A program made the position numbers and the translations under genes. From positions 1-38,512 of the forward strand of contig NZ_KI914979.1 of NCBI RefSeq assembly GCF_000520595.1: 38,512 nt of DNA, in the 5' to 3' direction. Below the pieces are notes generated by a model, which was given only the letters and a program-made list of their open reading frames with translations, was not told where the DNA came from and ran no database searches. The DNA is from Arthrobacter sp. H5 (GTDB lineage: Bacteria; Actinomycetota; Actinomycetes; Actinomycetales; Micrococcaceae). Of the stretch, positions 6,761-37,152 are shown piece after piece (position 1 is the first letter of the stretch; the number at the start of each line of letters is the position of its first letter).

Positions 6761-6773
6761 ATTGTTGAACAAT
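6761..6773. promoter_or_regulatory. Predicted GntR operator upstream of pxpA
   Basis: ATTGTT-G-AACAAT is a perfect 13-base palindrome 52 bases before the pxpA start. The same palindrome occurs twice in front of the divergently placed Nramp-like/DUF1445 operon (14214-14226 and 14238-14250). The half-site TTGT..ACAA fits GntR-family sites, and a GntR gene sits at the end of this operon. A CATACT hexamer just downstream may be the -10, so binding would overlap the promoter. Confidence 0.75.
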
Positions 6774-6825: not shown

Positions 6826-7584
6826 ATGACCTTTATTGACCTCAACAGTGACGTCGGCGAATCCTTTGGAAACTGGACAATGGGCGACGACGCCGCGATC
6901 TTCCGTTCGGTCTCCAGCGCCAACGTCGCGTGCGGGTTCCACGCCGGCGACCCCTCCACCATCGCCCAGACCTGCCGCGATGCCGTTACCGCCGGCGTCA
7001 CGATCGGCGCGCATGTGGGCTACCGCGACCTCGCTGGGTTTGGCCGGCGGTTCCTGGACTGCTCCCCCACCGAACTGGCCGACGACGTCCTCTACCAACT
7101 CGGCGCCCTCGACGCGATCTCGCGCGCGGCCGGTGGCAATATCCGCTATGTGAAGCCGCACGGCGCCCTGTACAACACCATCGTCACGCACAAAACACAT
7201 GCCCAGGCCGTAGTAGACGCCGTCAAGGCCTTCGGCGGGGATCTTCCGCTGCTGCTGCTGCCGGGTTCGGTGGCGCTGACAACTGCCGAGGCCGCAGGAC
7301 TGCGCGGGGTAGCCGAGGCCTTCGCCGACCGCGCCTACAACCCGGACGGAACGCTGGTCTCCCGCCGCGAACAGGGCGCCGTCCTTCACGACGAGGAAAC
7401 GGTCGCCGCCAACATGGTCCGCCTCGCCACCGAGGGCACCATCATCGCCCGGGACGGTTCGGCAATGAAGACCACCGCGGAGAGCATCTGCCTGCACGGA
7501 GACACAGCCGGAGCCGTGTCCATGTCGGCAACAGTCCGCCGTGAGCTGGAGGCTGCCGGCGTCGGTATCCGGAGCTTCGTGTGA
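6826..7584 (+). CDS. pxpA: 5-oxoprolinase subunit A (LamB/YcsF family)
   Basis: 252 residues, full length for the family. Typical segments are [11 protein letters not shown] (4-14) with acidic residues of the active site, [12 protein letters not shown] (about 34-45), [16 protein letters not shown] and [10 protein letters not shown]. PxpA with PxpB and PxpC forms the bacterial ATP-dependent 5-oxoprolinase that opens pyroglutamate to glutamate. The start ATG 6826 has GGGGAT 5-10 bases ahead. The stop overlaps the GTG of the next gene by four bases (GTGA), indicating translational coupling. First gene of a four-gene operon controlled by the palindrome at 6761. Confidence 0.95.
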
Positions 7585-9185
7585 GCGCTGTGCAAGTTCA
7601 GGCGGACATTCGTTGGGCCGGCCCCCGCGCCCTGCTGATCGACGTGGATTCCCTCGAATCGGTCCTGGCCCTGCACGCCCGGTTGCTGAAGGGCCCGCTG
7701 GCGGGGCAGATTGATGTCCTTGCCGCAGCGCGGACCGTGCTCGCCGTTTTCGACTCCCGTGCACACGCCCGCGCTGCCCGCGCCGTCGTCGAGGCGTTGG
7801 ACACTTCACCGTCGGAGAATGCGTCGTCGTCGGGGGACCCGGTGCGGATCGAGGTGGTGTACGACGGCGAGGACCTCACCGAGGTGGGCAACCTCACCGG
7901 CCTCGGGGCAGACGGCGTGATCGCAGCCCATACCGGTCAGCTGTGGACGGCAGCGTTCGGCGGATTTGCGCCCGGCTTCGCCTATCTGGCCGGCGAGGAC
8001 GAGACGCTTACAGTGCCCCGCCGCAGCACGCCGCGCACCGCGGTTCCGGCCGGTTCGGTGGCTCTGGCCGGAAATTTCTCGGCCGTCTATCCGCGGCGCT
8101 CCCCCGGCGGATGGCAGCTCATCGGACACACGGCCACCCGCATGTGGGACCTGGACCGGGAACAGCCCGCCCTCCTGCGGCCCGGAACCACCGTGCGGTA
8201 TGTGGCCGTACGGGAACTGATCGAGCCCGCAGGGAAGCCCAGCGACAATCCCGCACCGGATGACGCCCCGAATCCTGCAGACCCTTTCCTGGAGGTCCTC
8301 TCCCCCGGACCGCAGTCCCTGGTGCAGGATCTCGGCCGGCCCGGACTGGGCGACCTCGGCGTCTCACCCTCCGGCGCCGCCGACACCGCGGGTGCCCGGC
8401 AGGCCAACCGCCTGGTCGGGAATGAGCCCGGTGACGCCGTGATCGAGACCGTCCTCGGCGGGCTGGCCGTGCGCGCCCACGGCGAGCTGACGGCCGCACT
8501 CAGCGGCGCGGGCGCTCCTGCCGGGATCCGCAGCGCACACGGCGAGCGCCAAGCACCGATGTGCGCTCCGTTTGCACTGCACGACGGCGAGAGTCTCCAC
8601 CTCGGTGCGCCCGGCTCCGGTCTGCGCACCTATCTCGCGGTCCGCGGCGGCATCAACGTTCCCTCCGTGCTCGGAAGCCGTTCGACGGACCTGATGTCCG
8701 GGATCGGCCCGGCACCCCTGATGGGCGGAACGGTACTGCCCGTCGGCGTCGTCGAACGCGGACGCTTGGTCGGCAGCCCCGAATCCTCAACTCTGCCGCA
8801 GGCGATCACCTCAGACCAGCCGGTGATCCTGCGCATCACCGCCGGCCCCCGCCAGGACTGGTTCACTCCCGAATCCCGATCCGCCCTCACCACGCAGACC
8901 TGGACTGTGACGGCCGAGTCCAACCGGATCGGCGTCCGGCTCGGGTTGGCAGCTGCCACAAAGCCCCTGGAACGTGAGCAAACCGGCGAGCTGCCCAGCG
9001 AAGGTGTGGTGGCCGGCTCACTCCAGGTGCCGCCGTCGGGCCTTCCCGTCCTGTTCCTGGCCGACCATCCGGTGACGGGCGGGTATCCGGTGATCGGCGT
9101 CGTCGTACCCGAAGACCTCCCAATCGCCGCCCAACTGCCGCCCGGCGCCACCCTGCATTTTGTCGAAGTGGATCCCCCATCGTGA
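7581..9185 (+). CDS. pxpB-pxpC: 5-oxoprolinase subunits B and C fused (KipI-KipA type)
   Basis: 534 residues. Residues 1 to about 215 are the PxpB/KipI (AHS1) domain, with [32 protein letters not shown] and the GGWQLIGHT motif. A Pro/Asp-rich linker (about 216-238) joins it to a PxpC/KipA (AHS2) domain with [22 protein letters not shown] and TYLAVRGGI. In many bacteria these are two genes. The AHS1-AHS2 pair is also the fold of the carboxyltransferase domain of urea carboxylase, which matters because a biotin carboxylase/biotin carrier protein is encoded 19 bases downstream. Both domains look complete, and both conserved glycine-rich loops are present. GTG start overlapping pxpA. Confidence 0.93.
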
Positions 9186-9204
9186 GCACGTGGAAAGAGC
9201 ACCC

Positions 9205-10941
9205 ATGAAAAAGGTCCTGATCGCCAACCGCGGTGAAATTGCCGTCCGGATTGCACGCGCCTGCGCCGATGCGGAACTGGCGTCCGTCGCGGTGTATTCC
9301 GCCCCCGACGCCGACGCGCTGCACGTCCGCCTCAGCGACGAGGCCTACGCGCTGGACGGTTCAGCGAGTGCGGACACGTACCTGAATATTGGGAAACTGC
9401 TCGGCGTCGCGGCCCGTGCCGGCGCCGATGCAGTCCACCCCGGCTACGGCTTCCTGTCCGAGAACGCGGACTTTGCGCAGGCAGTGCAGGACGCCGGACT
9501 CACCTGGATTGGCCCCTCGCCGGAGGCCATCCGGAGCCTGGGCAACAAGGTCACCGCCCGCGAGATTGCTGTCCGTGCCGGCGCGCCGCTGGTGCCGGGC
9601 ACAGATGGGCCGGTTGCGGACGCAGCTGAAGTCCGTGCGTTCGCGGAACAGCACGGCGTCCCGGTGGCGATCAAAGCGGCCTTCGGCGGCGGCGGCCGCG
9701 GGTTGAGGATTGCCCACCGGATGGAGGATATTGATGACGCCTTCGACTCGGCGGTGCGCGAGGCGACGGTGGCGTTTGGCCGCGGCGAGTGCTTCGTGGA
9801 GCGGTTCCTGGCCAAGCCGCGGCACGTCGAGGCGCAGGTGCTGGCAGACACGCACGGAAACGTGATTGTGGTGGGTACCCGCGATTGTTCGCTGCAGCGC
9901 CGCAACCAGAAGCTGGTCGAGGAGGCGCCCGCACCGTTCCTGACGGATGAGCAGCGCACCCGCATCCACGAATCCGCCCGTGCCATTTGCCGTGAGGCAG
10001 GCTACGCCGGCGCCGGCACCGTGGAGTATCTGGTGGCGCCCGACGGCGTGATCTCCTTCCTTGAGGTCAACACGCGCCTGCAGGTGGAGCACCCGGTGAC
10101 GGAGGAGACCTCCGGAATTGACCTGGTGCGCGAGCAGTTCCGCATCGCCGCCGGGCTGCCGGTGTCCATCACCGAGGATCCCGTTCCGCGCGGCCACGCG
10201 ATCGAGTTCCGGCTCAACGCGGAGGACGCCGGACGCGGCTTCCTGCCTTCCCCTGGACCCGTTGACGTGTTCGAGGCGCCCACCGGTGCCGGGATCCGGG
10301 TGGATACCGGGGTCCGCTCCGGGTCGACAGTTCCTGCCGAGTATGACTCGCTGATGGCCAAGCTCATTGTCCACGGCGAGGACCGTGCGCAGGCCCTGCG
10401 CCGTGCCCGGACGGCGCTGGACGAACTCCGGATCGAGGGCGTGCCGACGGTGGTCCCGTTCCATCGCGCCGTGGTGCGGGACCCGGATTTCACCCAGCCA
10501 GACCGGTTGGGCGTGTACACGACGTGGATCGAATCGGAGTTCGCCGACCGCCTCGCCGCTTCCCTTGAGAGTGGGGTGACAGGGCCCGTTGCCCGGCGGG
10601 AGACGCTCACCGTGGAAATCGACGGCAAGGCCGTCCAGCTCGGGCTGCCGGCCGAAGTGTTCGCGGCGTTGATGACCGGCGGTAGCGCCGCCGTCGTGCC
10701 GTCAGCTGAAAAGACCACGGACGACGACGGCGCGGTCACCGCCCCGATGGGTGGGAACCTGGTGAAGTGGCTGGCCGACGACGGCGCGGAAGTTGCTGCC
10801 GAACAGCCCCTCGCCGTGCTGGAGGCCATGAAGATGGAGACGGTGGTTCATGCCTCCCGCGCCGGGATGTTGAAGCGGGGCGGGCAGGAGGCGGGTGCCG
10901 CCGTCGTCCGTGGTGAAGTGATTGGTACGGTTTCCACATGA
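9205..10941 (+). CDS. Biotin carboxylase fused to biotin carboxyl carrier domain
   Basis: 578 residues from ATG 9205, preceded by GGAAAG. The biotin carboxylase part (1 to about 445) has [32 protein letters not shown], the ATP-grasp glycine loop [29 protein letters not shown] and the catalytic [14 protein letters not shown]. The C-terminal 75 residues are a biotinyl domain with EAMKM; Lys543 (codon 10831-10833) is the predicted biotin site. The architecture equals actinobacterial acyl-CoA carboxylase alpha chains, but no carboxyltransferase beta chain is nearby. In context the PxpB-PxpC fusion is the only partner with a carboxyltransferase-like fold. It may alternatively serve a carboxylase encoded elsewhere. 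Confidence 0.92.
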
Positions 10942-11606
10942 CACTTGGGGAGGAGCCTGCGGCTGAGCACGCCCACACCACGGCGTGGATCGCGTCAGTG
11001 CTGCGGGGCCGGATTGCGGCGGGGCGGCTGACTCCGGGGTCAAAGCTGTCCGAGCAGTCGTTGTCGGCGGCGCTCGGTGTATCGCGCAACACGCTGCGGC
11101 AGGCGTTCACCACGCTTGCCGGCGAGTCGATCGTGACCCGCGTTCCCAACCGCGGCGTCTTTGTGGCGTCGCCCGGTGCTGAGGAAGTGCGCGAGATTTA
11201 CCGGGTTCGCCGGACGATCGAGCCGGCGGCGGTACTGTGGGGCGAGGCCACACCGGAGGCGCTCAATGCGATGGAAGCCATCGTGCAGCGGGCGCAGGCT
11301 GCCCGGGAGGCTGGGTCGGTGGCCGACATGGCGGGTGCCAACCAGGAGTTTCACGAGGCGGTGGTGGGACTCACCGGAAGCTCCGCTTTGCGGGCACTGA
11401 TGGACCGGGTGCTGGCGGAGATGCGGCTGGTGTTTTACGCCATGGCGTCCGCTCCGGACTTCCACAGCCACTATGTGAGCCGCAATGCGGGGTTGGTTCA
11501 GCGGCTGCGGGCGGGCCAGAATGAGTTGGCCGCAACAGAGCTCCGCGAGTACCTCGACGCGGCCGAAGCGGAACTGTTGGAGCACCTGACCGGCGTCGCC
11601 CAGTAA
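10938..11606 (+). CDS. GntR-family regulator (FCD-type), probable pyroglutamate regulon repressor
   Basis: 222 residues, overlapping the biotin carboxylase stop (ATGA). The N-terminal winged helix includes [33 protein letters not shown] and [11 protein letters not shown]; the rest is helical and FCD-like ([11 protein letters not shown], then [12 protein letters not shown]). The two histidines that usually complete the FCD metal site near the C-terminus appear replaced (SRNAGLV and LREYL where EHxxI and xxHL are usual), so the effector pocket may work without a metal. The ATTGTT-S-AACAAT palindromes before pxpA and before the Nramp-like gene are the likely sites, which would give autoregulation. 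Confidence 0.88.
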
Positions 11607-11720: not shown

Positions 11721-12155
11721 ATCGGATCTGGCGGCGCAGCTCACTGGAACAACCGAACAACCGAACAGTCGATCGGCTCGGCGCGCGGCTTTGCCGGTGG
11801 CGGCTGGCTGGGCCAGTTGTTCGAAGCTTTAGCCACCCTCTCTGTTCGCGTCCTTGCGCAGGCTGCTGAGGCTTCCGTTGGGCATTTTCGCACTCGCAAC
11901 GGTGATCGGGAGGTCGACCTCGTACTCGAAAGGTATGACGGAAAACTTGTGGCATTTGAGATCAAGCTTGCCGCGGCGGTGAGCGACAGAGACGTGAGCC
12001 ACCTTCACTGGCTGCGCGACGCGCTGGGAGATCGGCTGGTCGAAACCGCCGTGCTGACTGCGGGCCCCGCAGCTTATAGACGAGCGGATGGGATCGCTGT
12101 TATTCCGCTAGCCCTGCTTACGGCACCAGGTAGTCGCTGTCCCTCGCGTCGGTGA
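11721..12155 (+). pseudogene. ATPase with DUF4143 domain, C-terminal remnant
   Basis: The frame contains GGGWLGQLFEALATLSVRV, then RTRNGDREVDLVLE, AFEIKL and ALLTA, the end of AAA-type ATPases with a C-terminal DUF4143 nuclease-like domain (ExD and ExK-type residues). The family is about 400-450 residues long; only about the last 110 are left. No start codon with a ribosome site exists, and the N-terminal ATPase is gone. The frame runs on to 12155, past the normal end and into the 3' end of the convergent DUF1445 gene. It is not part of the flanking pyroglutamate operons and shows decay between them. Confidence 0.75.
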
Positions 12156-12936
12156 TGAGCATGTGTCCCGGGGCGTGTCCGATCGCCAGAGGTGGCCTCG
12201 ACTGCATCACGGCCGCCTGCGGTGTGACGCCGCAGGCCCAGAACACCGGCAGATGACCATCCGGGATTTCCACCGCGTCGCCGAAGTCCGGTTCATTCAA
12301 CTGGATGCCCAACTCACCCGGGTTGCCCACATGTACCGGTGCCCCGTGGACAGCCGGATAACGCGAGGTGATGCGGACAGCGTCGGCCACCTGTGCAGCG
12401 GGGACCGGTCGCATGGAGACCACCAGTGGACCGGACATGGCTCCGGCGGGTGCGCACTCGCGGTTGGTGCGGTACATCGGCACGTTCACGCCCTGGTCGA
12501 TGTGCGCGATGCTGATGCCGCCGTCCTGCAGTGCGGCCTCGAAGGTGAAGGAGCAACCGATCAGGAAGGTCACCAGGTCATCGCGCCAGTGGGCGGAGAT
12601 GTCGGTGGGTTCGTCGACTTTTTCGCCGTCGTGGTAGACCGTGTACTTCGGGACATCGGTCCGGATGTCGCCGCCGGCCAGCAGCGGCCCGGTGGTTTCG
12701 CCGGACTCCAACACTCCAAGGATGGGACACGGTTTGGGATTGCGCTGGGCGAAGAGCAGCAGGTCGAAGGCCTGTTCACGCGGGATTGCGAGCACGTTTG
12801 CCTGCGCGTACCCTCGTGACCAGCCCGACGTCGGCACCACCAGTCCGCCCCGGAACATCCCGCGCGCTTCGGCGGGCGGCAGGGACGCAACGTCAGTTTC
12901 GTCGTCGTTCGCTGGGCTGATCACGCGGTTGATCAC
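12118..12936 (-). CDS. DUF1445 / YcsI-type protein (putative hydro-lyase family)
   Basis: 272 residues from GTG 12936, whose GTGA overlaps the stop of the Nramp-like gene. Characteristic pieces are [59 protein letters not shown] and [10 protein letters not shown]. These are typical of DUF1445, listed as putative hydro-lyase (YcsI; D-glutamate cyclase-related). D-Glutamate cyclase makes 5-oxo-D-proline from D-glutamate, so a protein of this family in a pyroglutamate regulon is chemically sensible, although the activity here is an inference. The Bacillus subtilis ycs/kip region has the same partners. A longer in-frame extension upstream overlaps the transporter and is unlikely. Confidence 0.9.
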
Positions 12937-14153
12937 ACCGCCCACAGCTGCGCCAGGCCGGTGATGGAGATATAGCCGAGGAACAGGGTAAGCAGCCAGG
13001 TCACCACGCCCACGATCAGCAGCCACTTGGGGTAGGCGTACCCGTGCATCAGGTCGCGGCGCCGCCAGGCCACCCAGAGGAGCACGCCAAAGCCCACGGG
13101 GAGGATGAGCCCGTTGAACGCACCGGCGAAGATGAGCAGCTGCTGCGGTGCCTGGCCAAGGAAGAGGTACACAATCGCGCAGCCTGCAATGAAAGCAACG
13201 GTGATGAGGTTGCGCTTGCGCTCCGGCGTCTTTGAGGACGTAATGAAGGAAACCGAGGTGAACGCGGCGCCGATCACCGAAGTAATTGCGGCGGCCCAGA
13301 GGACTACGCCGAACATCCGCATGCCAATTTCTCCGGCCGCTGCGCCGAAAGCTTCGGCGGCCATGTTGTCGCTGGTGAGTACGGTGCCGCCGGCAACAAC
13401 GCCGAGGATGGCCAGGAACAGCAACACCCGCATGATGCCGGTGACAATGATGCCCAGCACTGAGCTGCGGGTGATTTCCCCGACGTTGTCGATGCCCGTG
13501 ACACCGGAGTCGAGCATGCGGTGGGCGCCTGCGTAGGTAATGTAGCCGCCCACGGTGCCGCCCACAAGGGTAGTGATGATGAGGAAGTCCACTTCTTCGG
13601 GGAAGATCGTGTTTCTCAGGGCATCGCCGACGGGTGGGGCAGCGACGATGGCCACGTAGATCATGAGAAGGATCATGATGGCGCCAAGCAGCACCACGAT
13701 GCGGTCCATTGCCATGCCGGCCTTCTTGCTGACGAAGATCAGGATGGCAATGACTGCCGAGATGCCCCCACCAATTTTGGGGTCCACGCCGAGCATCGCA
13801 TTGACTCCAAGGCCGGTGCCGGCGATGTTGCCGATGTTGAAGACCACGCCACCGATGAAGACCAGTCCGGCGAGGAACCAGCCGACGCCCGGGATGACTT
13901 TGTTGCCGAGCTCCTGGGCGCGGAGGCCGGAGACGCCGATGACGCGCCAGACGTTCATCTGGACGGCAACGTCGATCAGGATTGAGGCCAGGATGGCGAA
14001 GGCGAAGGCCGCACCAAGCTGCGCGGTGAACACCGTGGTCTGGGTGATGAAGCCCGGTCCAATCGCACTGGTGGCCATCAGGAACATGGCCCCCAGAAGG
14101 GCCGTGCGCCGAGCGGAGGAGCTCAGCTTAGGTTTGCTGCCGGTATCTGCCAT
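12933..14153 (-). CDS. Nramp-fold transporter lacking the metal-binding motif (YcsG-like)
   Basis: 406 residues with about eleven hydrophobic segments. The Nramp fold is recognisable from [19 protein letters not shown] in helix 1 onward. In true metal transporters helix 1 carries DPGN; here the aligned residues are G32-P33-G34-F35, so both metal ligands (Asp and Asn) are gone. Helix 6, where MPH is expected, reads [12 protein letters not shown]. Such a protein is unlikely to carry divalent metal. Its partners (DUF1445 in the same operon and the shared GntR sites with pxpA) make a small organic acid such as 5-oxoproline a reasonable cargo, by inference. ATG 14153 follows a leader with the inverted repeat 14175-14188. 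Confidence 0.88.
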
Positions 14154-14213: not shown

Positions 14214-14226
14214 GTTGTTGAACAAT
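14214..14226. promoter_or_regulatory. Predicted GntR operator, promoter-proximal copy
   Basis: GTTGTT-G-AACAAT differs from the perfect palindrome before pxpA only in its first base. Its centre is 24 bases from the centre of the second copy at 14238-14250, which would put two dimers on nearly the same face of the helix. It lies 61 bases upstream of the Nramp-like gene start. Confidence 0.75.
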
Positions 14227-14237
14227 CTACGCAAGCT

Positions 14238-14250
14238 ATTGTTCAACAAT
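14238..14250. promoter_or_regulatory. Predicted GntR operator, distal copy
   Basis: ATTGTT-C-AACAAT is a perfect 13-base palindrome, the same as the site at 6761-6773 except for the central base. Three copies in 7.5 kb at the two promoters of functionally linked genes is unlikely to be chance. Confidence 0.78.
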
Positions 14251-27337: not shown

Positions 27338-28594
27338 TCAAGGCTGCATTCGGGCTATCCGTACCGCAACCATCGCGGGGATGTCATCCGGCACGGAGGG
27401 AAACGCGTCCGAAGCCGATTGGATGGAAGCGCCAAGCCGCTCCAGGGTGGCCTTGACGGTTGCGCTGGCGAGTCGACGCGGTATCCCCCAGCTTGCGCCT
27501 TCTTCAGCGATGTCGTCGGCGAAGATCCTGTTCATGGTGGAGTTCCCGTTGACCCACAGGCCGGCCGAGTCTGTTTGCGGCAGAAAGTGCATGGTGGGTA
27601 CCACATCGTACATGGGCGACACTGAGCACCCTACCGGGCCGAGCATGAGCGAGTAGTTTTTTGCGTGGGCGCCGGCGTTACCAACAGCAATGTTGACTGT
27701 GACCTGCCGCAGCAGTGTGAGCAACTGCACCCTCGGATCGTTGGAGTATCGGCTCACGGCGCCGGCGATCTTGTGGAGGGAGGGCCTGACCGCCCTGGAA
27801 CCGTCGGAGTTCACCGCCGAGTCAGAAGCGTATTTTGCATGAGGAGGACTACCCAGCATCTGGCAGCCATCCTCCTGATGCAACCTGCGGACGCCGTCTT
27901 TGGTCCCGGTACGGTCAAACCGGGTCACCAGCAGGGCTGGAACATCTTCAGGGTTTCCCATCATTGACACTGCGGCTGCCGGCGTCGCGGCGCCGGCAAG
28001 CGTCATTGCCCAGGCCTCGGCTGCCGCCATGCCCTGGTATTCGGTTTTCTCGGGCTTGACCAGGTGCGTTGAAATGGCTCCCTGCAGGGGTAGTGCCCAG
28101 CCTTCTCCGACACGGGTCAGCAGCAATTTGGACTGGAATCCACCCAGTGAGCTGCGGACCTCCCCTGCATCCTGCACCGGCCACTGAGGCAGCCGGTCAA
28201 GCATTGACGCGAGCTCCTCATGCGACACCAACTGGAGGGATGCTTCCTGTTCTGGTGCAAACCCCGCGGGACCTACGGCGACGGCACCCGCGCATTCCCA
28301 GCCAATCTTCTCCAAGAGGAGGAAGTCGTCATGGGAGGGGACCCCGGCTGCCCGGGCAGCCGCAGCGCGCTGATCGCCTTCCGGAAGCAGACCGGAGAAC
28401 CAGTTGCGGGTGAGCACAGAGTTGAAGGGCTCCGGGCCCACGGGCATTGAGCAGGAGAGAAGCGGCTCCGCCCAATGCTCTTTCACCGTGTCCGGCAGGT
28501 ACTTAAAGGTCCCTTCGCCGGCACGATCGAGGCTGATCTGCCCAACCAGTTGCCCGTGCAACAGCACGTCAAGGGTTCTCCCGGTCGGGCTCAT
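27338..28594 (-). CDS. hipA: HipA-like Ser/Thr kinase toxin with substituted catalytic Asp
   Basis: 418 residues with the N-terminal HipA couple domain (LLHGQLVGQI, NWFSGLLPEGDQR) and the kinase core (SLGGFQSKLLL, STHLVKPE, HQEDGCQMLG, YDVVPT). HipA phosphorylates glutamyl-tRNA synthetase in Escherichia coli and depends on an Asp in the motif NxDxHxKN. Here that motif is N-A-G-A-H-A-K-N (306-313), with Gly308 (codon 27671-27673, GGC) at the Asp position. The metal Asp330 in MYDVV is kept. So it is probably weakly active or inactive. It overlaps hipB by four bases, converges with the MFS gene over a 43-base gap. Confidence 0.88.
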   Translation of the reverse strand: MSPTGRTLDVLLHGQLVGQISLDRAGEGTFKYLPDTVKEHWAEPLLSCSMPVGPEPFNSVLTRNWFSGLLPEGDQRAAAARAAGVPSHDDFLLLEKIGWECAGAVAVGPAGFAPEQEASLQLVSHEELASMLDRLPQWPVQDAGEVRSSLGGFQSKLLLTRVGEGWALPLQGAISTHLVKPEKTEYQGMAAAEAWAMTLAGAATPAAAVSMMGNPEDVPALLVTRFDRTGTKDGVRRLHQEDGCQMLGSPPHAKYASDSAVNSDGSRAVRPSLHKIAGAVSRYSNDPRVQLLTLLRQVTVNIAVGNAGAHAKNYSLMLGPVGCSVSPMYDVVPTMHFLPQTDSAGLWVNGNSTMNRIFADDIAEEGASWGIPRRLASATVKATLERLGASIQSASDAFPSVPDDIPAMVAVRIARMQP

Positions 28595-29067: not shown

Positions 29068-30111
29068 TTGCATTCCCATCAGACTTTTTCCGTCGCCGAT
29101 CTGCTCCGTCTCGCCTCAGCCGTCCTTGAGGCCCGCGGCGTTTCGGCGGATGACGCGGATCTGACTGCACGTTCGCTTGTGCAGGCGGATCAGCGCGGCA
29201 TCTTTTCCCATGGTTTGTTACGCCTGCCGTTGTATTCGGAAGCCCTGCGTCTTGGCGGGATCAATCCGACTCCGGCAATGACGTTCTCCTCCGGACGGGA
29301 CGCGGTCGCTGTCCTCGATGCGGATGCAGCGCTTGGCCAGGTGGCCATGCAGGCCGCCGTCGATCGGATCGTTGAGACCGGTCGCGGGCACGGCATAGCC
29401 GCCGTCGCTGTCCACAACAGCAGCCATTACGGCGCGGGTGCCTTCTGGAGCGACCAGCTCGCCGCCGCAGGCTTCCTTTCGTTCATCACGTCATCAACCG
29501 GACCTGTGGTCGCACCGCACGGCGGCATCGCCAAGGTGTTGGGGACCAACCCGCTGACGCTTGGCGCTCCCAGCGCTGACGGATGGCCACTCACCGCGGA
29601 CCTGGCGACCAGCAACGGCGCCTATGGCAAGCTCATCGCCGCGAGGAACGAAGGCCGGCAGCTCCCCGAGGGCTGGGCTGTCGACGCTGAGGGCAACCCA
29701 ACCACGGATCCGGATGCAGCCGCTGCCGGCTCCATGATCCCCTTCGGCAATCACAAGGGCTCGGCTGTTGCTGTACTCCTTGAGGCCTTCACCTCTTCCC
29801 TGACGGACGCAACGTACGCATTCGAGACGGTCGATATCTGGTCCAATCCCGCATCCAGGATGAACAACGGGCACCTGATAGTGGGCATCGACACCGAGGC
29901 GTTCTCGGGCCGTGCCCACACCGAAGCCCGCGTGGCGGACCTTCAGCAGCGGGTGCGTGAATCCGGACCGGCAGGCAGGGAAGTACTGGCCCCGGGAGAT
30001 CCGGAACGTATCCGGGAATCCGAAGCGGATTCGGACGTGCACCTGCCAGCCTCCACCGCAAACCAGTTGCGTCAACTCGCAGAAGAGCTCTCACTTCCAT
30101 CGACCGTCTAA
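29068..30111 (+). CDS. Ldh-family (malate/L-lactate dehydrogenase type) oxidoreductase
   Basis: 347 residues, full length for the family. Typical segments are SHGLLRLPLYSEALR (Ser-His pair of the active site), GIAAVAVHNSSHYGAGAFW, TSSTGPVVAPHGG, GTNPLTLGAPS and PFGNHKGSAVAVLLE. The family uses NAD(P)H on 2-oxo acids and sometimes on cyclic imines or ureidoglycolate-type substrates. In a sugar-acid operon it may reduce or oxidise a 2-keto or 2-hydroxy acid. The start is TTG 29068, since no better start precedes the conserved FSVADLLRLA; GAAGGG lies 13 bases ahead. First gene of the TRAP operon. Confidence 0.87.
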   Translation: MHSHQTFSVADLLRLASAVLEARGVSADDADLTARSLVQADQRGIFSHGLLRLPLYSEALRLGGINPTPAMTFSSGRDAVAVLDADAALGQVAMQAAVDRIVETGRGHGIAAVAVHNSSHYGAGAFWSDQLAAAGFLSFITSSTGPVVAPHGGIAKVLGTNPLTLGAPSADGWPLTADLATSNGAYGKLIAARNEGRQLPEGWAVDAEGNPTTDPDAAAAGSMIPFGNHKGSAVAVLLEAFTSSLTDATYAFETVDIWSNPASRMNNGHLIVGIDTEAFSGRAHTEARVADLQQRVRESGPAGREVLAPGDPERIRESEADSDVHLPASTANQLRQLAEELSLPSTV

Positions 30112-30164
30112 CAAAAAACCCACCACCAACCGTTCACAACCGTATTCCCGGAAGGAATCCAGCA

Positions 30165-31202
30165 ATGAAGCTCGAAAACTCCACCCTCACCCGCCGTCGT
30201 CGTACCTTCACAGCTCTCGGCCTCGCAGCAAGCGCCGCGCTCCTGCTCTCGGCGTGCAACGTCGGCACTCCAGTGGACCGCGATGAAGCCGGTCAGGCAG
30301 ACACAGATGCCAAGACGCTGCGCCTTGCACACGTCTACGAAGCTGGCCACCCCGTCGAAGAGTGCGGCGTCACCACTCTGAAGGAAGAACTGGACGGAAG
30401 CGGGCTGCAGATCGAAAGCTTCCCCGCCGCGCAGCTGGGCAACGAGTCCGAGTCCCTGGAGCAGGTTGCTTCCGGTGCCCTCGACATGGCCATCGCCGGC
30501 CCCTCATTCCTCGGAGTATGGGAAGAGGACGCAGCAGTGCTGGACGGCGCCTACCTGTTCGAGGACGTGGAACACTTCATCGAGACCGTCGAGGGCGACA
30601 CCATGACCAGCGTGTTCGACGCACTCTACGAAAGCTCCGACATCAAGGTCCTCTCCAGCTGGTACTACGGCACCCGCCACGTGACCGCCAATAAGGAGAT
30701 CAGCACGTCCGAGGACTTCGCCGGCCTGAAGATCCGCACCCCCAACGCGCCGCTGTACCTCGCGAACATCGCGGCCATGGGCGGCACCGCCACTCCGATG
30801 GCACTCGACGAGGTCTACCTCGCCCTCCAGCAGGGCGTCATCGACGCGCAGGAGAACCCGATCCCCACCATCTCCACCGCTAAATTCAACGAGGTCCAGG
30901 ACTACATCAACCTCACCGCCCACATGATCCAGGGCGTCCAGATCACCACCGGCCGCACCGTCTACGAAGGTCTCAGCGAAGAAGAGCGCAGCGCGCTTGA
31001 AGGCGCTATGGCTGCAGCAGCCGACGCCACCCGCGTATGCATCGAGGAGCAGGAACAGGGCATCCTGGAGGAATGGAAGTCCGGCGAGGGCATCCAGGTC
31101 AACGAGGACGTAGACCGTGAGTCCTTCGCTGCTGCTGCCGAAGAAGCCATGCTCAAGCAGCCTTGGGGTGAGCTGTACCAGGAAATCAAGGACGCCCGGT
31201 GA
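30165..31202 (+). CDS. dctP: TRAP transporter substrate-binding lipoprotein (DctP family)
   Basis: 345 residues. Four arginines, a hydrophobic stretch and the lipobox LSAC (Cys31) make it a lipoprotein, as usual for TRAP receptors in Gram-positive bacteria. The DctP fold shows in LRLAHVYEAGHPV, IESFPAAQLGNE, GLKIRTPNAPLYLANIAAMGGTATPMALDEVYLALQQGVIDAQENPI in pattern, where the Arg of KIRTP typically salt-bridges the carboxylate of the ligand. That Arg argues for a sugar acid or other carboxylate. AAGGA lies about eight bases before the ATG. The stop overlaps the next start (GTGA). Confidence 0.93.
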   Translation: MKLENSTLTRRRRTFTALGLAASAALLLSACNVGTPVDRDEAGQADTDAKTLRLAHVYEAGHPVEECGVTTLKEELDGSGLQIESFPAAQLGNESESLEQVASGALDMAIAGPSFLGVWEEDAAVLDGAYLFEDVEHFIETVEGDTMTSVFDALYESSDIKVLSSWYYGTRHVTANKEISTSEDFAGLKIRTPNAPLYLANIAAMGGTATPMALDEVYLALQQGVIDAQENPIPTISTAKFNEVQDYINLTAHMIQGVQITTGRTVYEGLSEEERSALEGAMAAAADATRVCIEEQEQGILEEWKSGEGIQVNEDVDRESFAAAAEEAMLKQPWGELYQEIKDAR

Positions 31203-31810
31203 GTTCACACCCTTCCCGTGCCGAAGCACCAAACGAGAACAACGTCGCCACCGGCTCTCATGTCCCCGATGAACCCGACGATCCGGACTTCGCAGAACAG
31301 CACAGCCGGCTCTACCGGGGACTGGTCAACGTCGAACGGGGTGCCTCCTGCACCCTGCTGGTGGCGACACTAGGCCTGATCGTCCTCCAGGTTGTCAGCC
31401 GCTACGTGTTCAATTCGCCGTTCAGCTGGACAGAGGAACTGGCACGGTTTGCGCTGCTCTGGTTCACCTTTGTCTCCGCCGGTTTTGTGATGGCGCGCCG
31501 CATCCACATCGCGGTAGACCTGCTCGCCAGCAAGCTTGGGCGGGTCGGCACCATTGTCCTGGACACTTTCGCCCTCACCGCGGTGCTGGTGACGGCGGGA
31601 GTGATGTCCGTGGCCGGCGCCGAGTTCGCCATCGGCGCCAACCGGCTTTTGGCTCCAGCCACGAGCCTGCCTATGAGCGTCGTCTACAGCGCCGCAGTGA
31701 CCGGGTTTGTGCTCATCTTCCTGCACGCCGCCCTGCACATCTACCTCAATATCCGCCATCCCGAGGTTGTTCCGGATGCCATGGAAAACCTCGAGCGGGA
31801 AGCGGTCTAG
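31199..31810 (+). CDS. dctQ: TRAP transporter small membrane subunit (DctQ family)
   Basis: 203 residues. The first 45 residues are an unusually long acidic, soluble extension before four hydrophobic segments. ELARFALLWFTFVSAGFVMARRIHIAVDLL is the typical DctQ loop and second helix region. It forms the membrane part with DctM. GTG start in GTGA overlap with dctP. Confidence 0.92.
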   Translation: MSSHPSRAEAPNENNVATGSHVPDEPDDPDFAEQHSRLYRGLVNVERGASCTLLVATLGLIVLQVVSRYVFNSPFSWTEELARFALLWFTFVSAGFVMARRIHIAVDLLASKLGRVGTIVLDTFALTAVLVTAGVMSVAGAEFAIGANRLLAPATSLPMSVVYSAAVTGFVLIFLHAALHIYLNIRHPEVVPDAMENLEREAV

Positions 31811-31818
31811 GACACCAT

Positions 31819-33099
31819 ATGACTCTCCTCATCATGCTCATTGCGCTGCTGGTGCTACTTGCCCTGCGCGTCCCTGTCTCCTTTGCGCTACTCATTCCCT
31901 CCGTCGCCTACGTCATCATGGATCCGACGGCGCGAATCGGCACCGCCGTGCAGCAGACCGTTTCCGGCGTGGACAGCTTCGCGATCCTCGCGGTGCCGAT
32001 GTTCATCCTGCTCGGCAACCTTGCCAACGTCTCCGGAGTTACGGACAAGCTCTACGACGCCGCCGTGGCTGCCATCGGGCACCTGCGTGGCAGCCTCGGC
32101 TACGTGAATGTCGCCACCAGCTTCGGCTTCTCCTGGATGAGCGGCGCCGCGATTGCCGACGCAGCGGCCATGGGCCGGGTACAGGTGCCGGCCATGGTGG
32201 AACGCGGCTACAAGCGCGAATTTGCGCTCGGCGTCACCGGTGCCTCAAGCCTCATCGCGCCCATGATTCCGCCCAGCATTCCAGCCGTAATCTACGCGGT
32301 CACCGCAGGAGTCTCCGTGGGTGCACTGTTCATGGCCGGCATCGTGCCCGCCCTGGTGCTGGTCACCGCCCTGTGCTTCACCGTCTGGCTGCTCATGCGC
32401 AAGCGTGAGGACCTGCGCCTGCCGAAGTCATCGTGGAAGGTGCGCGGACGCACCACCCTTGCGGCGCTGCCCGCCATGGGATCCGCCGTCGTCATCCTCG
32501 GCGGAATCCTCAGCGGCATCTTCACGCCAACGGAGGCGAGCGGGATCGGCGTGATCTACATCTTCGTCCTCGCTCTCGTCTACCGGATGCTGTCCTGGCG
32601 GAAGATCTACCGGACACTGCTCACTACGGTTGAAACCTCCGGGTCCGTGCTCCTGATCGTTGCCGCGGCAGCGCTCTTCGGCTGGGTCCTGGCCCGTGAG
32701 CAGGCACCCCAGGTGGCTGCGAACCTGATCCTGGAAATCACCAACCAGCCGATCGTGTTCTTGATCCTGGTCAACATCCTGCTCCTCCTCGTGGGCTGCG
32801 TCCTGGAACCCACCGCTGCAATCCTGATCCTGGTACCGGTGCTGCTTCCCGTAGCGGAAACCTTCGGCATCGATCCCATCCACCTGGGCATCATGGTGAT
32901 CTTCAACCTCCTGATCGGCCTGATCACTCCCCCGGTGGGACTGGTGCTCTTTGTGCTGTCGAGCGTGACCCGGGCGCCGGTACCCACCGTCATCAAGGGC
33001 ATCCTTCCGTTTTTCGCCCCGATGGTCGTCACACTCCTGGTCATCACTTTCGTCCCTGCCCTCACGATCGGACTGCCCACGCTATTGGGCTTCCTTTAG
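31819..33099 (+). CDS. dctM: TRAP transporter large permease (DctM family)
   Basis: 426 residues with 12 or more hydrophobic segments. Typical signatures are LLALRVPVSFALLIPS, AVPMFILLGNLAN, SGAAIADAAAMGRV and TGASSLIAPMIPPSIPAVIYAV (conserved proline loop), and GLITPPVGLVLFVLSSV in the second half. It is the sodium-coupled translocator of the TRAP system. Eight bases separate it from dctQ. No broken motif. Confidence 0.94.
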   Translation: MTLLIMLIALLVLLALRVPVSFALLIPSVAYVIMDPTARIGTAVQQTVSGVDSFAILAVPMFILLGNLANVSGVTDKLYDAAVAAIGHLRGSLGYVNVATSFGFSWMSGAAIADAAAMGRVQVPAMVERGYKREFALGVTGASSLIAPMIPPSIPAVIYAVTAGVSVGALFMAGIVPALVLVTALCFTVWLLMRKREDLRLPKSSWKVRGRTTLAALPAMGSAVVILGGILSGIFTPTEASGIGVIYIFVLALVYRMLSWRKIYRTLLTTVETSGSVLLIVAAAALFGWVLAREQAPQVAANLILEITNQPIVFLILVNILLLLVGCVLEPTAAILILVPVLLPVAETFGIDPIHLGIMVIFNLLIGLITPPVGLVLFVLSSVTRAPVPTVIKGILPFFAPMVVTLLVITFVPALTIGLPTLLGFL

Positions 33100-33135
33100 A
33101 CCTGACTGCCCGCACCAACTGAACAAGGAATACCT

Positions 33136-34440
33136 ATGTCACGCATCGCTTCAGTGCACACCACCGATGTGCGCTTCCCCACCTCCCTGGACCTCTCCGG
33201 ATCCGACGCCGTCAACGTCGATCCCGACTACTCCGCCGCGTACGTCGAAATAGCAACGGACGACGGCGAGCGCGGCTACGGCCTCGTCTTCACCTGCGGG
33301 CGGGGCAACGAACTCATCACCGCGGCGATGGACAGCTACGGCGAGCTGCTGGTCGGCCGCGACACCGATGAGCTGGTCAACAACCTTGGCGATGCTTCCA
33401 GCAGGCTGGTCCACGACTCCCAGATGCGCTGGCTCGGCCCTGAGAAGGGTGTCTCGCACATGGCCTGCGGCGGCCTGATCAACGCCCTCTGGGATGTTCG
33501 GGCCCGGCGCGAGAACAAGCCTTTGTGGCTCCTCCTGAGCGACATGCCGGTGGCGGAACTGGTGAGCGCCGTGGACTTCACGCACATCGGCAATGCCCTG
33601 ACCCCGCAGGACGCCACGGACATCCTCCAGCGCGGCCAGGAAGGTAAGCAGGAACGCATCGCGGAGCTGCAGCAGAACGGCTACCCCGCCTACACCACCA
33701 CCCCGGGCTGGCTGGGCTACAGCGACGAGAAGCTGGTGCGCCTGGCGAAGGAGGCCGTCGCGGACGGTTTCGGGATGATCAAACTCAAGGTTGCCGGCAG
33801 CATCGAGGACGACCGCCGTCGCCTCTCCCTGGCGCGCGAAGCGGTGGGACCCGATGTCCGCATTGCCATCGACGCCAACCAGCGCTGGGAGGAACAGGAG
33901 GCCATCGACTGGGTGAACCAGCTCCAGGACTTCAACCCGTACTGGATCGAGGAGCCCACCAGCACCGATGACATCCTCGCCCACGCGGCCATCCGCAAGG
34001 CTGTGCACCCGATCAAGGTGGCAACCGGTGAGGCCGTCCAAAGCCGCATCATCTTCAAGCAGCTGCTGCAGGCCGGGGCGATTGACATCATGCAGATCGA
34101 CTCGACGCGGGTTGCCGGTGTCAATGAGAACATCGCCAACCTGCTCCTCGCGGCAAGGTTCAACACCCCGGTCTGCCCGCATGCCGGCGGCGTGGGCCTG
34201 TGCGAGCTGGTCCAGCATTTCTCATTCTTCGACTACGCAGCGATCACGGGGTCCATGGAGGATCGGGTTATTGAGTTCGTTGACCACCTCCACGAGCATT
34301 TCGCCGAGCCGGTGGTCGTCACGGGCGGACGCTACCAGGCACCGAAGCTTGCAGGGGTCGGCGCCGAGATGCTGAACGATTCCACCGCACGGTGGACGTT
34401 CCCCACAGGCGCCGGCTGGCAGGAACTGAACGCACGCTGA
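33136..34440 (+). CDS. Enolase-superfamily sugar acid dehydratase, L-fuconate dehydratase type
   Basis: 434 residues. Characteristic FucD-type segments are RWLGPEKGVSHMACGGLINALWD, AYTTTPGWLGYSDEKL and FGMIKLKVAG (catalytic Lys pair), AIDANQRW (metal Asp), YWIEEPTSTDD (Glu), KVATGEAVQ (Glu) and CPHAGGVGLCE (His base). L-Fuconate dehydratases convert L-fuconate to 2-keto-3-deoxy-L-fuconate and often accept D-arabinonate and similar acids. With the TRAP importer and the aldehyde dehydrogenase it forms the core of an aldonate pathway. AAGGA before the ATG. All catalytic residues present. Confidence 0.92.
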   Translation: MSRIASVHTTDVRFPTSLDLSGSDAVNVDPDYSAAYVEIATDDGERGYGLVFTCGRGNELITAAMDSYGELLVGRDTDELVNNLGDASSRLVHDSQMRWLGPEKGVSHMACGGLINALWDVRARRENKPLWLLLSDMPVAELVSAVDFTHIGNALTPQDATDILQRGQEGKQERIAELQQNGYPAYTTTPGWLGYSDEKLVRLAKEAVADGFGMIKLKVAGSIEDDRRRLSLAREAVGPDVRIAIDANQRWEEQEAIDWVNQLQDFNPYWIEEPTSTDDILAHAAIRKAVHPIKVATGEAVQSRIIFKQLLQAGAIDIMQIDSTRVAGVNENIANLLLAARFNTPVCPHAGGVGLCELVQHFSFFDYAAITGSMEDRVIEFVDHLHEHFAEPVVVTGGRYQAPKLAGVGAEMLNDSTARWTFPTGAGWQELNAR

Positions 34441-34468
34441 CCACCCGAACCAACCCGGAAGGAGTCCC

Positions 34469-35971
34469 ATGACTGCCGCTACCCTGACCATTGCAACGAC
34501 CACTGACGAGGTGGAGGCGGCGGCCAAGAGCGCCCATGCTGCCTTCCTTTCCGCTGCCGGAACCGATCCGTCCACCCGCGCGGGCTGGCTGGACGCCGTC
34601 GCGCAGGCCCTGCGGGAGAATGCCGGGGAGCTGGTGCCGCTCGGCGTCGCTGACACCCACCTTGCGGAGGCGCGCCTGCAGGGGGAGCTAAAACGCTCGG
34701 CCTTCCAGCTCGAGCTCCTGGCCGGCGAGGTGCGCTCCGGCGTCGTCCTGGATGCGGTGATTGACCACACCGATCCCGACTGGGGTATGGGGCCGCGGCC
34801 GGATATCCGCCGCGTCAATGTGCCCCTCGGCGTCGTTGGTGTGTTCGGTGCCTCCAATTTTCCGTTCGCTTTCAGTGTGATGGGCGGTGACAGCGCGTCT
34901 GCCCTCGCTGCGGGCTGCGCCGTCCTGCACAAGATCCATCCCGGGCATAAGACCCTTGCGCTGCGCACGGCTGAGGTGGTGGTCGAGGCGCTGCGGAACG
35001 CCGGTGCGCCGGAGGGCCTGTTCGCCGTCGTCGACGGTCGCCCTGCGGCAGAGGCTATGGTGGACCACCCGCTGGTGAAGGCCATCGGGTTCACCGGGTC
35101 CACCGCCGGCGGCCGCGCCCTGTTCAACCGCGTGTCAGCCCGGCCGGAGCCCATCCCCTTCTACGGGGAACTCGGCAGCATCAACCCGGTCTTTGTCCTG
35201 CCGGAGGCCTGGTCCTCCCGGTCGGCGGACATCCTATCCGGCTACGCGGCGTCGTTCACGATGGGCATGGGACAGTTCTGCACCAAACCCGGCGTCCTGT
35301 TCATCCCGGACTCAGCCACAGAGGACCTGCTCCGCGGCGCTCTGGCTCCGGCACTGGAACAGGCACCGCTCGCGAAGCTGCTGACTCCGGGCCTCCGGAA
35401 TTCGTTTGGCCAGGCGCGCGACGGGGTGGCCGGCTTCGACGGTGTCCGGGCCCTTGTGCCCGGGTCCGACGACGAGGCCCCGTCCCCCACCGTCCTGCTG
35501 ACGGACGCGGCGGCCGTGCGGTCGAATCCGGAGATCCTGCGGCAGGAGATGTTCGGGCCGGCGACCGTAGTGGTCCGGTACAGCAGCCCCGCGGTCCTGC
35601 CGGAGCTGGCACAGGCGATGGAGGGCCAGCTCACCGCCACCATCCATGCGGACGATGCCGACGACGCCGGCGACCTGCTCCGGACCCTTACCGGCATCGC
35701 GGGCCGCGTGTTGTGGAACGGCTGGCCCACCGGGGTGACCGTCTCACATGCCCAGCAGCACGGCGGACCGTACCCGGCCACCACGGCGCCGGGAACGACG
35801 TCGGTCGGTACCGCCGCCGTCGGACGCTTCACGCGCCCGGTCGCTTACCAGGATGTACCCGACAGTGCGCTGAATCCGGCTCTGCAGGAGGCCAATCCGT
35901 GGGGTATCCGCCGGCGGGTGGACGGCCGGTTCGACGACGCGCCATCCGGATTCGGGGAGGCCGTACGATGA
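34469..35971 (+). CDS. Aldehyde dehydrogenase, 2-oxoglutarate semialdehyde (2,5-dioxovalerate) type
   Basis: 500 residues, NAD(P)-dependent ALDH fold. FGASNFPFAFSVMGGDSASALAAGC binds the cofactor in pattern, GFTGSTAGGRALF is the Rossmann turn, Glu in FYGELGSINP and Cys in GMGQFCTKPG form the active site. The GELGSINPVF and GQFCTKPG forms are usual for ketoglutarate semialdehyde dehydrogenases, the last step of oxidative pentose pathways. Gene start ATG 34469 with GGAAGGAG ahead. Overlaps the next gene by ATGA. Confidence 0.9.
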   Translation: MTAATLTIATTTDEVEAAAKSAHAAFLSAAGTDPSTRAGWLDAVAQALRENAGELVPLGVADTHLAEARLQGELKRSAFQLELLAGEVRSGVVLDAVIDHTDPDWGMGPRPDIRRVNVPLGVVGVFGASNFPFAFSVMGGDSASALAAGCAVLHKIHPGHKTLALRTAEVVVEALRNAGAPEGLFAVVDGRPAAEAMVDHPLVKAIGFTGSTAGGRALFNRVSARPEPIPFYGELGSINPVFVLPEAWSSRSADILSGYAASFTMGMGQFCTKPGVLFIPDSATEDLLRGALAPALEQAPLAKLLTPGLRNSFGQARDGVAGFDGVRALVPGSDDEAPSPTVLLTDAAAVRSNPEILRQEMFGPATVVVRYSSPAVLPELAQAMEGQLTATIHADDADDAGDLLRTLTGIAGRVLWNGWPTGVTVSHAQQHGGPYPATTAPGTTSVGTAAVGRFTRPVAYQDVPDSALNPALQEANPWGIRRRVDGRFDDAPSGFGEAVR

Positions 35972-37152
35972 GCAGCGTACTTCCCGAAGATGCCGAGAGG
36001 GCTCTGCTCGTGGGGCGCCTCTGGGACCCGGTGACCGCCGGTCCGAGGCCTGTTCTGGTTGACGGTGACACCCTGGTGGACCTGTTCGGCTATGCCGCCA
36101 CGTTGTCGGAGCTGCTCAACGAGGATGCCTCTGGCGCCCTGCTTGAGCAGGCCCGGGCGTCCGATGCGCAGCGCTGGGATCTAGCCGGCGTGGTCAGCAC
36201 AACACCGGATGACGACGGCCTGCCCCATCTGCTGGCGCCGGTGGACCTGCAGGCTGTGAAGGCCTGCGGAGTCACCTTCGTCGACAGCATGATCGAACGC
36301 GTCATCGAGGAACGCTGCGCGGGCGATTCCACGCTCGCCGAGCAGATGCGCGCACAGGTGCTTGAGGCACTCGGGGGCACCCTTGCCGGTGTCCGCCCCG
36401 GATCACCGGAGGCGGCCCGCGTCAAGGAGGTTCTGGTCCGCGAAGGATTCTGGTCGCAGTACCTGGAGGTGGGGATCGGCCCGGATCCTGAAGTGTTCAC
36501 CAAGGGCCCCGTCCTGTCCGCGGTGGGTACCGGGGCGCGCATCGGCATCCCGTCCTTCTCCTCCTGGAACAATCCGGAGCCGGAGCTGGTGCTCGTGGTG
36601 GACAACCGCGGCCGGATCCGTGGCTGCACCCTCGGCAACGACGTCAACCTCCGCGACGTCGAGGGCCGCAGCGCGCTGCTGCTCGGGATGGCCAAAGACA
36701 ACAACGGGTCCACCGCAATAGGACCCTTTGTGAGATTGTTCAATGGTTCCTACACGCTCGACGACGCCCGGCAGGAGACCATCCAGCTCACGGTGCGCGG
36801 CTCCGACGGTTACATCCTGAGTGGAACCAACAGCGTCCAACGGCTGAGCCGCCCGTTCGAGGAACTTGTTGGAGCGGCGTATGGATCCCACCACCAGTAT
36901 CCGGACGGCTTTGTCCTGTTCACGGGAACGCTTTTCGCGCCGAATGAGGACCGGGACACTCCCGGAATGGGGTTCACGCACAAGGGCGGCGACGTGGTGG
37001 AGATCGGCAGTGCCCGGCTGGGTACACTGACAAACATGGTGGCACCCACGGAGGACCTGGAGCCCTGGCGGTTTGGGATCGGCAGCCAGCTGCAGTACAT
37101 CCTGGCGCACTCGCGCGCCAACACGCCCGCAGGCAGGGCAGGTGCCCGATGA
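35968..37152 (+). CDS. FAH-fold protein, XylX-like 2-keto-3-deoxy sugar acid dehydratase candidate
   Basis: 394 residues, longer than plain fumarylacetoacetate hydrolases (about 280). After an N-terminal domain of about 90 residues comes ACGVTFVDSMIERVIEE, then WNNPEPELVLVV, TLGNDVNLRDVEGRSALLLG with metal-site acids, AKDNNGSTAIGPF, and FTHKGGDVVEIG. This layout is that of XylX-type proteins, which dehydrate 2-keto-3-deoxypentonates to 2-oxoglutarate semialdehyde. That fits the aldehyde dehydrogenase just upstream. A 2,4-diketo acid hydrolase role is the alternative. ATG 35968 overlaps the upstream stop; an earlier frame extension is ignored. Confidence 0.87.
   Translation: MSSVLPEDAERALLVGRLWDPVTAGPRPVLVDGDTLVDLFGYAATLSELLNEDASGALLEQARASDAQRWDLAGVVSTTPDDDGLPHLLAPVDLQAVKACGVTFVDSMIERVIEERCAGDSTLAEQMRAQVLEALGGTLAGVRPGSPEAARVKEVLVREGFWSQYLEVGIGPDPEVFTKGPVLSAVGTGARIGIPSFSSWNNPEPELVLVVDNRGRIRGCTLGNDVNLRDVEGRSALLLGMAKDNNGSTAIGPFVRLFNGSYTLDDARQETIQLTVRGSDGYILSGTNSVQRLSRPFEELVGAAYGSHHQYPDGFVLFTGTLFAPNEDRDTPGMGFTHKGGDVVEIGSARLGTLTNMVAPTEDLEPWRFGIGSQLQYILAHSRANTPAGRAGAR

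Follow-up and report, generated by a model that had tools for sequence, protein, structure and literature searches.

A PxpABC operon with its own biotin carboxylase in Arthrobacter sp. H5: a candidate biotin-dependent 5-oxoprolinase

The known reaction of urea carboxylase is the N-carboxylation of an amide. Pyroglutamate (5-oxoproline) is disposed of in bacteria by PxpABC, a widespread route (PMC13274462). In a stretch of Arthrobacter sp. H5 DNA (contig NZ_KI914979.1, positions 1–38,512; the window below means all 38,512 nucleotides of it), pxpA and a pxpB-pxpC fusion are accompanied by a gene for a fused biotin carboxylase and biotin carboxyl carrier protein (BC-BCCP). The initial annotation proposed that these three proteins copy the logic of urea carboxylase and urea amidolyase. 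Their partnership is supported by gene adjacency, the grouping of the BC-BCCP proteins, intact residues, a one-chain fusion, the title of PDB entry 9YX5 and operators; the chemistry is still something that we infer. We consider it probable that the locus is a 5-oxoproline-inducible catabolic operon encoding a biotin-dependent 5-oxoprolinase, in which PxpBC N-carboxylates the lactam and PxpA opens the ring.

Open reading frames of the window were called and searched with Pfam and NCBIfam profiles, which gave the following features.

6761–6773, forward strand: PxpR-type operator ATTGTTGAACAAT, 52 bases before pxpA, the reverse complement of the Corynebacterium glutamicum 13-base core
6826–7584, forward strand: pxpA, putative ring-opening hydrolase (LamB_YcsF PF03746, 327 bits; NF003814, 354 bits, cut-off 226)
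7581–9185, forward strand: pxpB-pxpC fusion, putative carboxyltransferase (CT_C_D PF02682, 189 bits; CT_A_B PF02626, 273 bits)
9205–10941, forward strand: BC-BCCP fusion, 578 amino acids (Biotin_carb_N, CPSase_L_D2, Biotin_carb_C, Biotin_lipoyl)
10938–11606, forward strand: GntR/FCD regulator, probable PxpR counterpart (PF00392 and PF07729)
12118–13026, reverse strand: putative hydro-lyase of the D-glutamate cyclase family (PF07286, 216 bits; NF003969, 393 bits, cut-off 324)
12933–14153, reverse strand: NRAMP-fold transporter, YcsG/PxpT-like by context, presumably for 5-oxoproline uptake (PF01566, 80 bits)
14214–14250, no strand assigned: two PxpR-type operators, 14214–14226 with one mismatch and 14238–14250 exact, 84 bases before the transporter gene

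The genes pxpA, pxpB-pxpC, BC-BCCP and the GntR regulator form one operon, with a 4-nt overlap between pxpA and pxpBC, a 19-nt gap before BC-BCCP and a 4-nt overlap between BC-BCCP and the regulator. This consecutive order and the 19-base gap had been annotated before and were reproduced by the open reading frames and Pfam matches, with pxpA lying just 5' of the interval 7581–10941 that had been assigned to the system; the claim that no carboxyltransferase gene stands alongside also held, as the genome profile search placed neither of the host's two PF01039 genes in the window. The NF003969 match begins at residue 44 of the cyclase-family frame, so that this gene probably starts downstream of 13026. 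The transporter reaches 19 bits with the NCBIfam Nramp metal transporter profile, whose cut-off is 50.

Homologues of PxpA, PxpB and PxpC are encoded together in the window, PxpA scoring over its subfamily cut-off and PxpB and PxpC over the Pfam cut-offs. In the fusion, Pfam places CT_C_D (AHS1) at residues 10–199 and CT_A_B (AHS2) at residues 259–528; TIGR00724 is exceeded (247 bits, cut-off 230) and the equivalog profiles for PxpB and PxpC stay below their cut-offs (123 bits vs 146 and 177 bits vs 500). The AlphaFold model of the fusion, with a predicted local distance difference test (pLDDT) score of 92.6, was matched by Foldseek to TTHA0988, Mycobacterium smegmatis 3mml, Escherichia coli YbgJK and, over 322 columns, urea carboxylase 3va7. 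The PxpC part has the carboxyltransferase fold of urea carboxylase. Conserved positions of PxpC were compared among urea carboxylases, BC-linked PxpC and BC-less PxpC, at a threshold of at least 85% conservation in each group. Identity across all three groups was found at 35 positions, and at three the urea carboxylases differ, having mostly D, T and F in place of Q482, P484 and Y502 of the window protein; among the positions so conserved in all three groups, none separates BC-linked from BC-less PxpC. The window PxpC falls outside the urea-carboxylase clade of the PxpC tree, and the urea carboxylase profile TIGR02712 (cut-off 1304) scored 145 bits on one protein and 517 bits on another. To our knowledge, neither PxpB nor PxpC has an ATP-binding fold.

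The BC-BCCP protein carries the biotin motif EAMKM, with lysine 543 (codon 10831–10833) as the predicted site of biotin attachment. Fifteen BC positions, which we take to be catalytic from E. coli numbering, were compared with E. coli AccC in the window protein and 56 relatives (57 operon rows). The AccC residue is kept at 13 of the 15 positions in 57/57 rows; position 287 is Leu instead of Ile in all 57, and position 236 varies (Asn in 39, including the window, His in 14, other residues in 4). The biotin lysine stands in an MK motif in 57/57 rows, and the full EAMKM is found in 50/57.

Inference enters the mechanism at several points: that carboxylation takes place, what accepts the carboxyl group, which step follows which, what PxpA does to the carboxylated lactam and which substrate this host uses. 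With ATP and bicarbonate, the BC domain would charge the biotin of the BCCP domain with a carboxyl group, which PxpB-PxpC, as a carboxyltransferase of urea-carboxylase type, would move to the nitrogen of the 5-oxoproline lactam. The resulting N-carboxy-5-oxoproline would be an activated lactam, whose ring PxpA could open by hydrolysis to give N-carboxyglutamate, and this would lose CO2 to yield L-glutamate. The net reaction would be 5-oxoproline + ATP + 2 H2O -> glutamate + ADP + Pi, with bicarbonate recycled.

The pairing of PxpBC with BC was surveyed in several sets of genomes, a BC gene being counted as linked when it lies within 4.5 kb of PxpC. The named loci are the best 80 of at least 568 confirmed relatives of fused PxpBC, and their seed, four fusions that were all BC-linked, biases them to the window's type. 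The family sample comprises 47 CT_A_B loci from 38 genomes (39 of 41 genomes, the host's own included, had a match), the Actinomycetota sample 25 loci (23 of 80 genomes with a match, two of them already counted) and the Proteobacteria sample 31 of 33 CT_A_B places (21 of 80 genomes), with G124, at a contig end, and a duplicate of L053 left out. Fused PxpBC has BC nearby at 64/76 places in the named loci, 24/35 in the family sample (one being a one-chain fusion), 0/0 in Actinomycetota and 3/3 in Proteobacteria, so that the adjacency for which the initial annotation had suggested a survey is recurrent; three of the 12 BC-less fused places in the named loci lie within 360 bases of the stretch end. 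For split PxpB/PxpC, the corresponding counts are 1/6, 6/11, 7/21 and 6/17. Urea-carboxylase-like places number 0, 1, 2 and 11 in the same order, and pxpA is also near every other PxpC place that has BC. When the family, Actinomycetota and Proteobacteria samples are pooled, BC lies within 4.5 kb at 46 of 89 non-urea-carboxylase PxpC places, and chance adjacency is put at about 1–2% by rough arithmetic rather than simulation, taking a genome of about 4 Mb to hold about 5 BC genes. One of the 46, the Actinomycetota split locus L160, is also near a PF01039-like gene, to which its BC may belong. In the stretches examined, fused PxpBC never had a PF01039-like gene within 9 kb.

The strongest evidence that PxpBC and BC-BCCP may act as one enzyme is a gene fusion. 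In genome G020, PxpB, PxpC, a linker, BC and BCCP are encoded in a single open frame, and this one-chain form is present in 4 of 5 genomes of its genus, with 100, 89, 87 and 71% identity and zero internal stops; in the fifth, nothing matched the PxpBC part at the chosen threshold. All five hold a separate copy of the AccA3-like carboxylase chain, 58–59% identical. Independent evidence for the binding of a PxpBC pair to a BC-BCCP complex comes from PDB entry 9YX5, released on 2025-11-26. The entry is titled as a long chain acyl-CoA carboxylase complex of M. smegmatis "with MSMEG_0435-MSMEG_0436 bound", and by sequence it contains AccA3 (BC-BCCP) together with "Allophanate hydrolase subunit 1" and "subunit 2".

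Two further arrangements were seen in the survey. Nesterenkonia natronophila (L061) has two close pxpA-PxpBC copies, the first with BC-BCCP and the second with none before the stretch ends 355 bases on. In Actinomycetota, the carboxyltransferase pairs of L152 and L161 are fused in C-B order and fall with the urea carboxylases in the PxpC tree, with no BC within 4.5 kb.

The substrate is suggested by the operators. In C. glutamicum, PxpR represses pxpTABC via 5'-agattgttcaacaatct-3' and binds 5-oxoproline, with no binding of proline, Glu, Gln or Asp (PMC13274462). The 13-base core has exactly two copies in the 4.3-Mb Arthrobacter genome, vs 0 for a reversed control pattern, and both precede linked genes, pxpA (6761–6773) and the transporter gene (14238–14250). 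With up to two mismatches, the window has three matches vs 0.29 expected, and three were reached in 1 of 100 shuffles. The GntR gene is taken as PxpR because of its position in the operon and the operator, rather than from a comparison with the C. glutamicum PxpR sequence. In a wider survey, allowing one mismatch and taking sites 5' of pxp genes, an operator-type site was found at 48/64 BC-linked vs 2/16 BC-less named loci and at 20/30 vs 2/16 loci of the family sample. In the tree set the same comparison gave 42/51 vs 3/22 for fused rows and 1/22 vs 1/36 for split rows. A transporter or cyclase-family gene is in the stretch at 38/64 BC-linked vs 2/16 BC-less named loci.

Several observations weigh against a biotin-dependent 5-oxoprolinase. 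Niehaus and colleagues reportedly rebuilt the Bacillus subtilis enzyme in 2017 from nothing but recombinant PxpA, PxpB and PxpC; biotin would then play no part in that enzyme, provided that no host carboxylase was carried along. In the usual view, PxpBC phosphorylates 5-oxoproline (PMC13274462). No BC is nearby at 11 of the 35 fused places in the family sample, at the E. coli pxp genes, or in 58 of the 131 scored rows of the PxpC tree, a chosen subset of the named loci (two of the 58 group with urea carboxylases). The presence of BC requires 21 changes on the PxpC tree found, 6–7 of them forced by starred branches, so the operon-borne BC is often missing in close relatives. PxpR-type sites occur at 0/7 BC-linked (0/16 BC-less) loci of the Actinomycetota sample and 2/9 BC-linked (0/11 BC-less) loci of the Proteobacteria sample, and the link between BC and operator is not significant after kinship is taken into account (5 independent pairs). 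For entry 9YX5 the evidence consists of its title and sequences, and PxpBC may or may not meet biotin there.

One alternative is that PxpABC is a complete, biotin-free, substrate-phosphorylating 5-oxoprolinase and that BC-BCCP is a modulating accessory or is active on something else in the regulon. Such an enzyme would account for the frequent BC-less loci, including that of E. coli, for the reported B. subtilis reconstitution and for pxpTABC of C. glutamicum, which is described without a carboxylase gene (PMC13274462). Full activity without the biotin protein is one of the two outcomes that the initial annotation said would refute it, and the many BC-less loci keep this outcome conceivable. 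It is difficult to reconcile with BC positions and a biotin lysine that stay intact in all 57 operon rows, with the one-chain fusion in 4/5 genomes of one genus, with the lack of a PF01039-like gene within 9 kb of fused PxpBC and with the urea-carboxylase fold of PxpC, and we regard it as unlikely. Since BC-less PxpABC is common, either biotin is not obligatory or, as 9YX5 suggests, it is borrowed from housekeeping carboxylases. A tentative extension, to which we give rather less credence than to the biotin-dependent operon itself, is that PxpABC is generally a biotin enzyme with PxpBC acting as a carboxyltransferase in every case, and that the BC-less forms (E. coli, B. subtilis, C. glutamicum, mycobacteria) borrow carboxybiotin from the housekeeping acetyl- or acyl-CoA carboxylase, of which 9YX5 may be an example. 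As the CO2 would be released again, a catalytic amount of bicarbonate would suffice, and the need for it could have escaped notice. On one reading, operons with fused genes and a BC are the inducible form used for catabolism, and many BC-less forms may do damage repair with a shared carboxylase.

It can also be proposed that the operon encodes a biotin-dependent lactam or amide carboxylase with PxpA, acting on a substrate other than 5-oxoproline, e.g., a different lactam. The carboxyl acceptor is known to vary in the urea carboxylase family, and the host has a second pxp cluster, with a urea-carboxylase-like PxpC and no PxpR-type site; both favor this proposal. In the window, the PxpR-type operators before pxpA and the transporter gene, together with the neighbouring D-glutamate-cyclase-family and NRAMP-fold genes, point instead to 5-oxoproline, as does the ligand choice of C. 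glutamicum PxpR (PMC13274462), and we hold another substrate to be quite unlikely. The second cluster (L011, contig C12, 20000–35000) has, on one strand, pxpA, BCCP (motif EIMKQ), BC, pxpB, which is broken by a 100-base run of N, and the urea-carboxylase-like pxpC, and no PxpR-type site was found there. Its neighbours, judged by eye, are an asparaginase-like gene, a deacetylase-like gene and a divergent regulator. In the L011 clade of the PxpC tree, BC is present in 13 of 15 rows, one other row being cut by a contig end and one being without BC. This cluster may serve another lactam or amide.

The BC-BCCP of the window resembles most closely actinobacterial AccA3, the acyl-CoA carboxylase alpha chain (737 bits to a PDB chain, 55% identity to the host's own copy), which speaks for an extra alpha chain whose beta chain is encoded elsewhere. 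No PF01039 partner is encoded alongside it. The host genome has five BC genes, in the window, in the second pxp cluster and on contigs C11, C94 and C9, and two PF01039 carboxyltransferase genes, on C94 and C11, each on a contig with another BC gene. The C11 BC gene adjoins a PF01039 beta chain, the C94 one is about 11 kb from a PF01039 gene, and the C9 one sits in a 1157-residue open frame, the length of pyruvate carboxylase. Each of the two host pxp clusters therefore comes with a BC and a BCCP of its own, and it is different BC genes that lie near the PF01039 chains. A search of the 41 family genomes gave 66 BC-BCCP rows over 600 bits; the 22 closest to the window's (64–100% identity) all adjoin PxpBC, as do three further rows, and the other 41 (53–61% identity) are one per genome in 41/41, including two genomes without PxpC. 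A BC tree was made by a quick search from 57 chosen operon rows, 21 housekeeping (AccA3-like) rows and 4 outgroup rows, a subset of the named loci; the housekeeping label follows from similarity to AccA3, a beta chain on the same contig having been checked for the host's own copy only. The 21 AccA3-like rows form one clade with support 100. The operon rows, which include Pseudomonas, Comamonas, Xenorhabdus, Photorhabdus, Cedecea and a Rhizobiales bacterium, show 2 changes in the free tree, and constraining them together raised the likelihood by 14.5 over that of the free quick search (approximately unbiased test, p 0.69). The sequences are thus compatible with PxpBC-linked BC-BCCPs being one clade, in which proteobacterial and actinobacterial proteins would stand together, apart from the housekeeping alpha chain. 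An extra alpha chain for a beta subunit encoded elsewhere, which the initial annotation had named as one finding that would overturn it, was rejected as highly improbable on linkage, paralogue count, tree and fusion to PxpBC in one genus.

In eight Pseudomonas loci, the predicted masses are 60.5–62.1 kDa for BC-BCCP, 55.2–57.1 kDa for PxpBC and 26.5–27.4 kDa for PxpA; their match to the classical Pseudomonas putida 5-oxoprolinase is suggestive only, and a phosphorylated intermediate has reportedly been described. The classical two-component enzyme is quoted with 64 + 51 kDa and 82 kDa (PMC8453981). Proteins of the CapA/CapB type (75 and 63 kDa; PMC8453981) would also fit if the gels ran low.

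To date, the common pyroglutamate pathway has not been assigned a biotin mechanism. If true, this mechanism would make BC the source of the ATP step, provide a chemistry for the AHS1/AHS2 proteins and add a new acceptor class to the biotin-dependent carboxylases. It would also account for the PxpB-PxpC homologues bound in a solved mycobacterial acyl-CoA carboxylase structure, and correct the labelling of such BC/BCCP genes as an extra acetyl-CoA carboxylase (as in PMC12427679).

Beside the pxp genes, the window holds at 14520–24190 genes for an alpha/beta hydrolase, an M24 creatinase/prolidase-like peptidase, a peptide-type ABC transporter, an M19 dipeptidase and an AsnC-type regulator, which might supply pyroglutamyl or other small peptides. 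Farther on are a HipA-family gene (27338–28594) and, at 29068–37862, genes for a TRAP transporter (DctP, DctM) with Ldh_2, mandelate-racemase-family, aldehyde dehydrogenase and GntR proteins, perhaps a sugar-acid catabolic cluster.

In the open literature, no title, abstract or consulted passage linked PxpABC to biotin carboxylase, subscription papers and preprints being outside this search, and the novelty of a biotin-linked PxpABC is provisional. In a study of Lactiplantibacillus pentosus, an extra BC/BCCP pair and pxpB/pxpC are listed as separate peculiarities (PMC12427679); on a Lactiplantibacillus plantarum plasmid, these genes adjoin, with pxpA and an NRAMP transporter gene. Split AHS genes were noted in 2011 as being without functional data (PMC3199775), and in NCBI some PxpC proteins carry the name "biotin-dependent carboxyltransferase family protein".

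Among known systems, caprolactamase CapAB shares with the proposed enzyme an ATP- and bicarbonate-dependent lactam opening, for which its authors consider a carboxylated lactim mechanism; it differs in having unrelated OPLAH/HyuAB-type proteins, with no biotin protein described in the accessible text (PMC8453981). MSMEG_0435-MSMEG_0436 are PxpC/PxpB homologues, 44–45% and 49–50% identical to the window fusion in 3mml and 50% for 9yx5_W, whereas the BC-BCCP of 9YX5 is AccA3 and that of the window is an additional, operon-encoded copy. Urea carboxylase and urea amidolyase (PDB 3VA7, 5I8I) have in common with the window BC, BCCP, an AHS2/AHS1 carboxyltransferase and the expected sequence of amide N-carboxylation followed by a hydrolase. 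In the window, by contrast, PxpA, PxpB-PxpC and BC-BCCP are separate proteins, the domain order is B-C and not C-B, BCCP stands beside BC, and PxpA takes the place of allophanate hydrolase. With PxpABC of E. coli, B. subtilis and C. glutamicum the locus shares the PxpA, PxpB and PxpC homologues, and with that of C. glutamicum also a transporter gene and a PxpR-type operator; to PxpABC as described, which has no biotin protein, the window operon adds a BC-BCCP gene.

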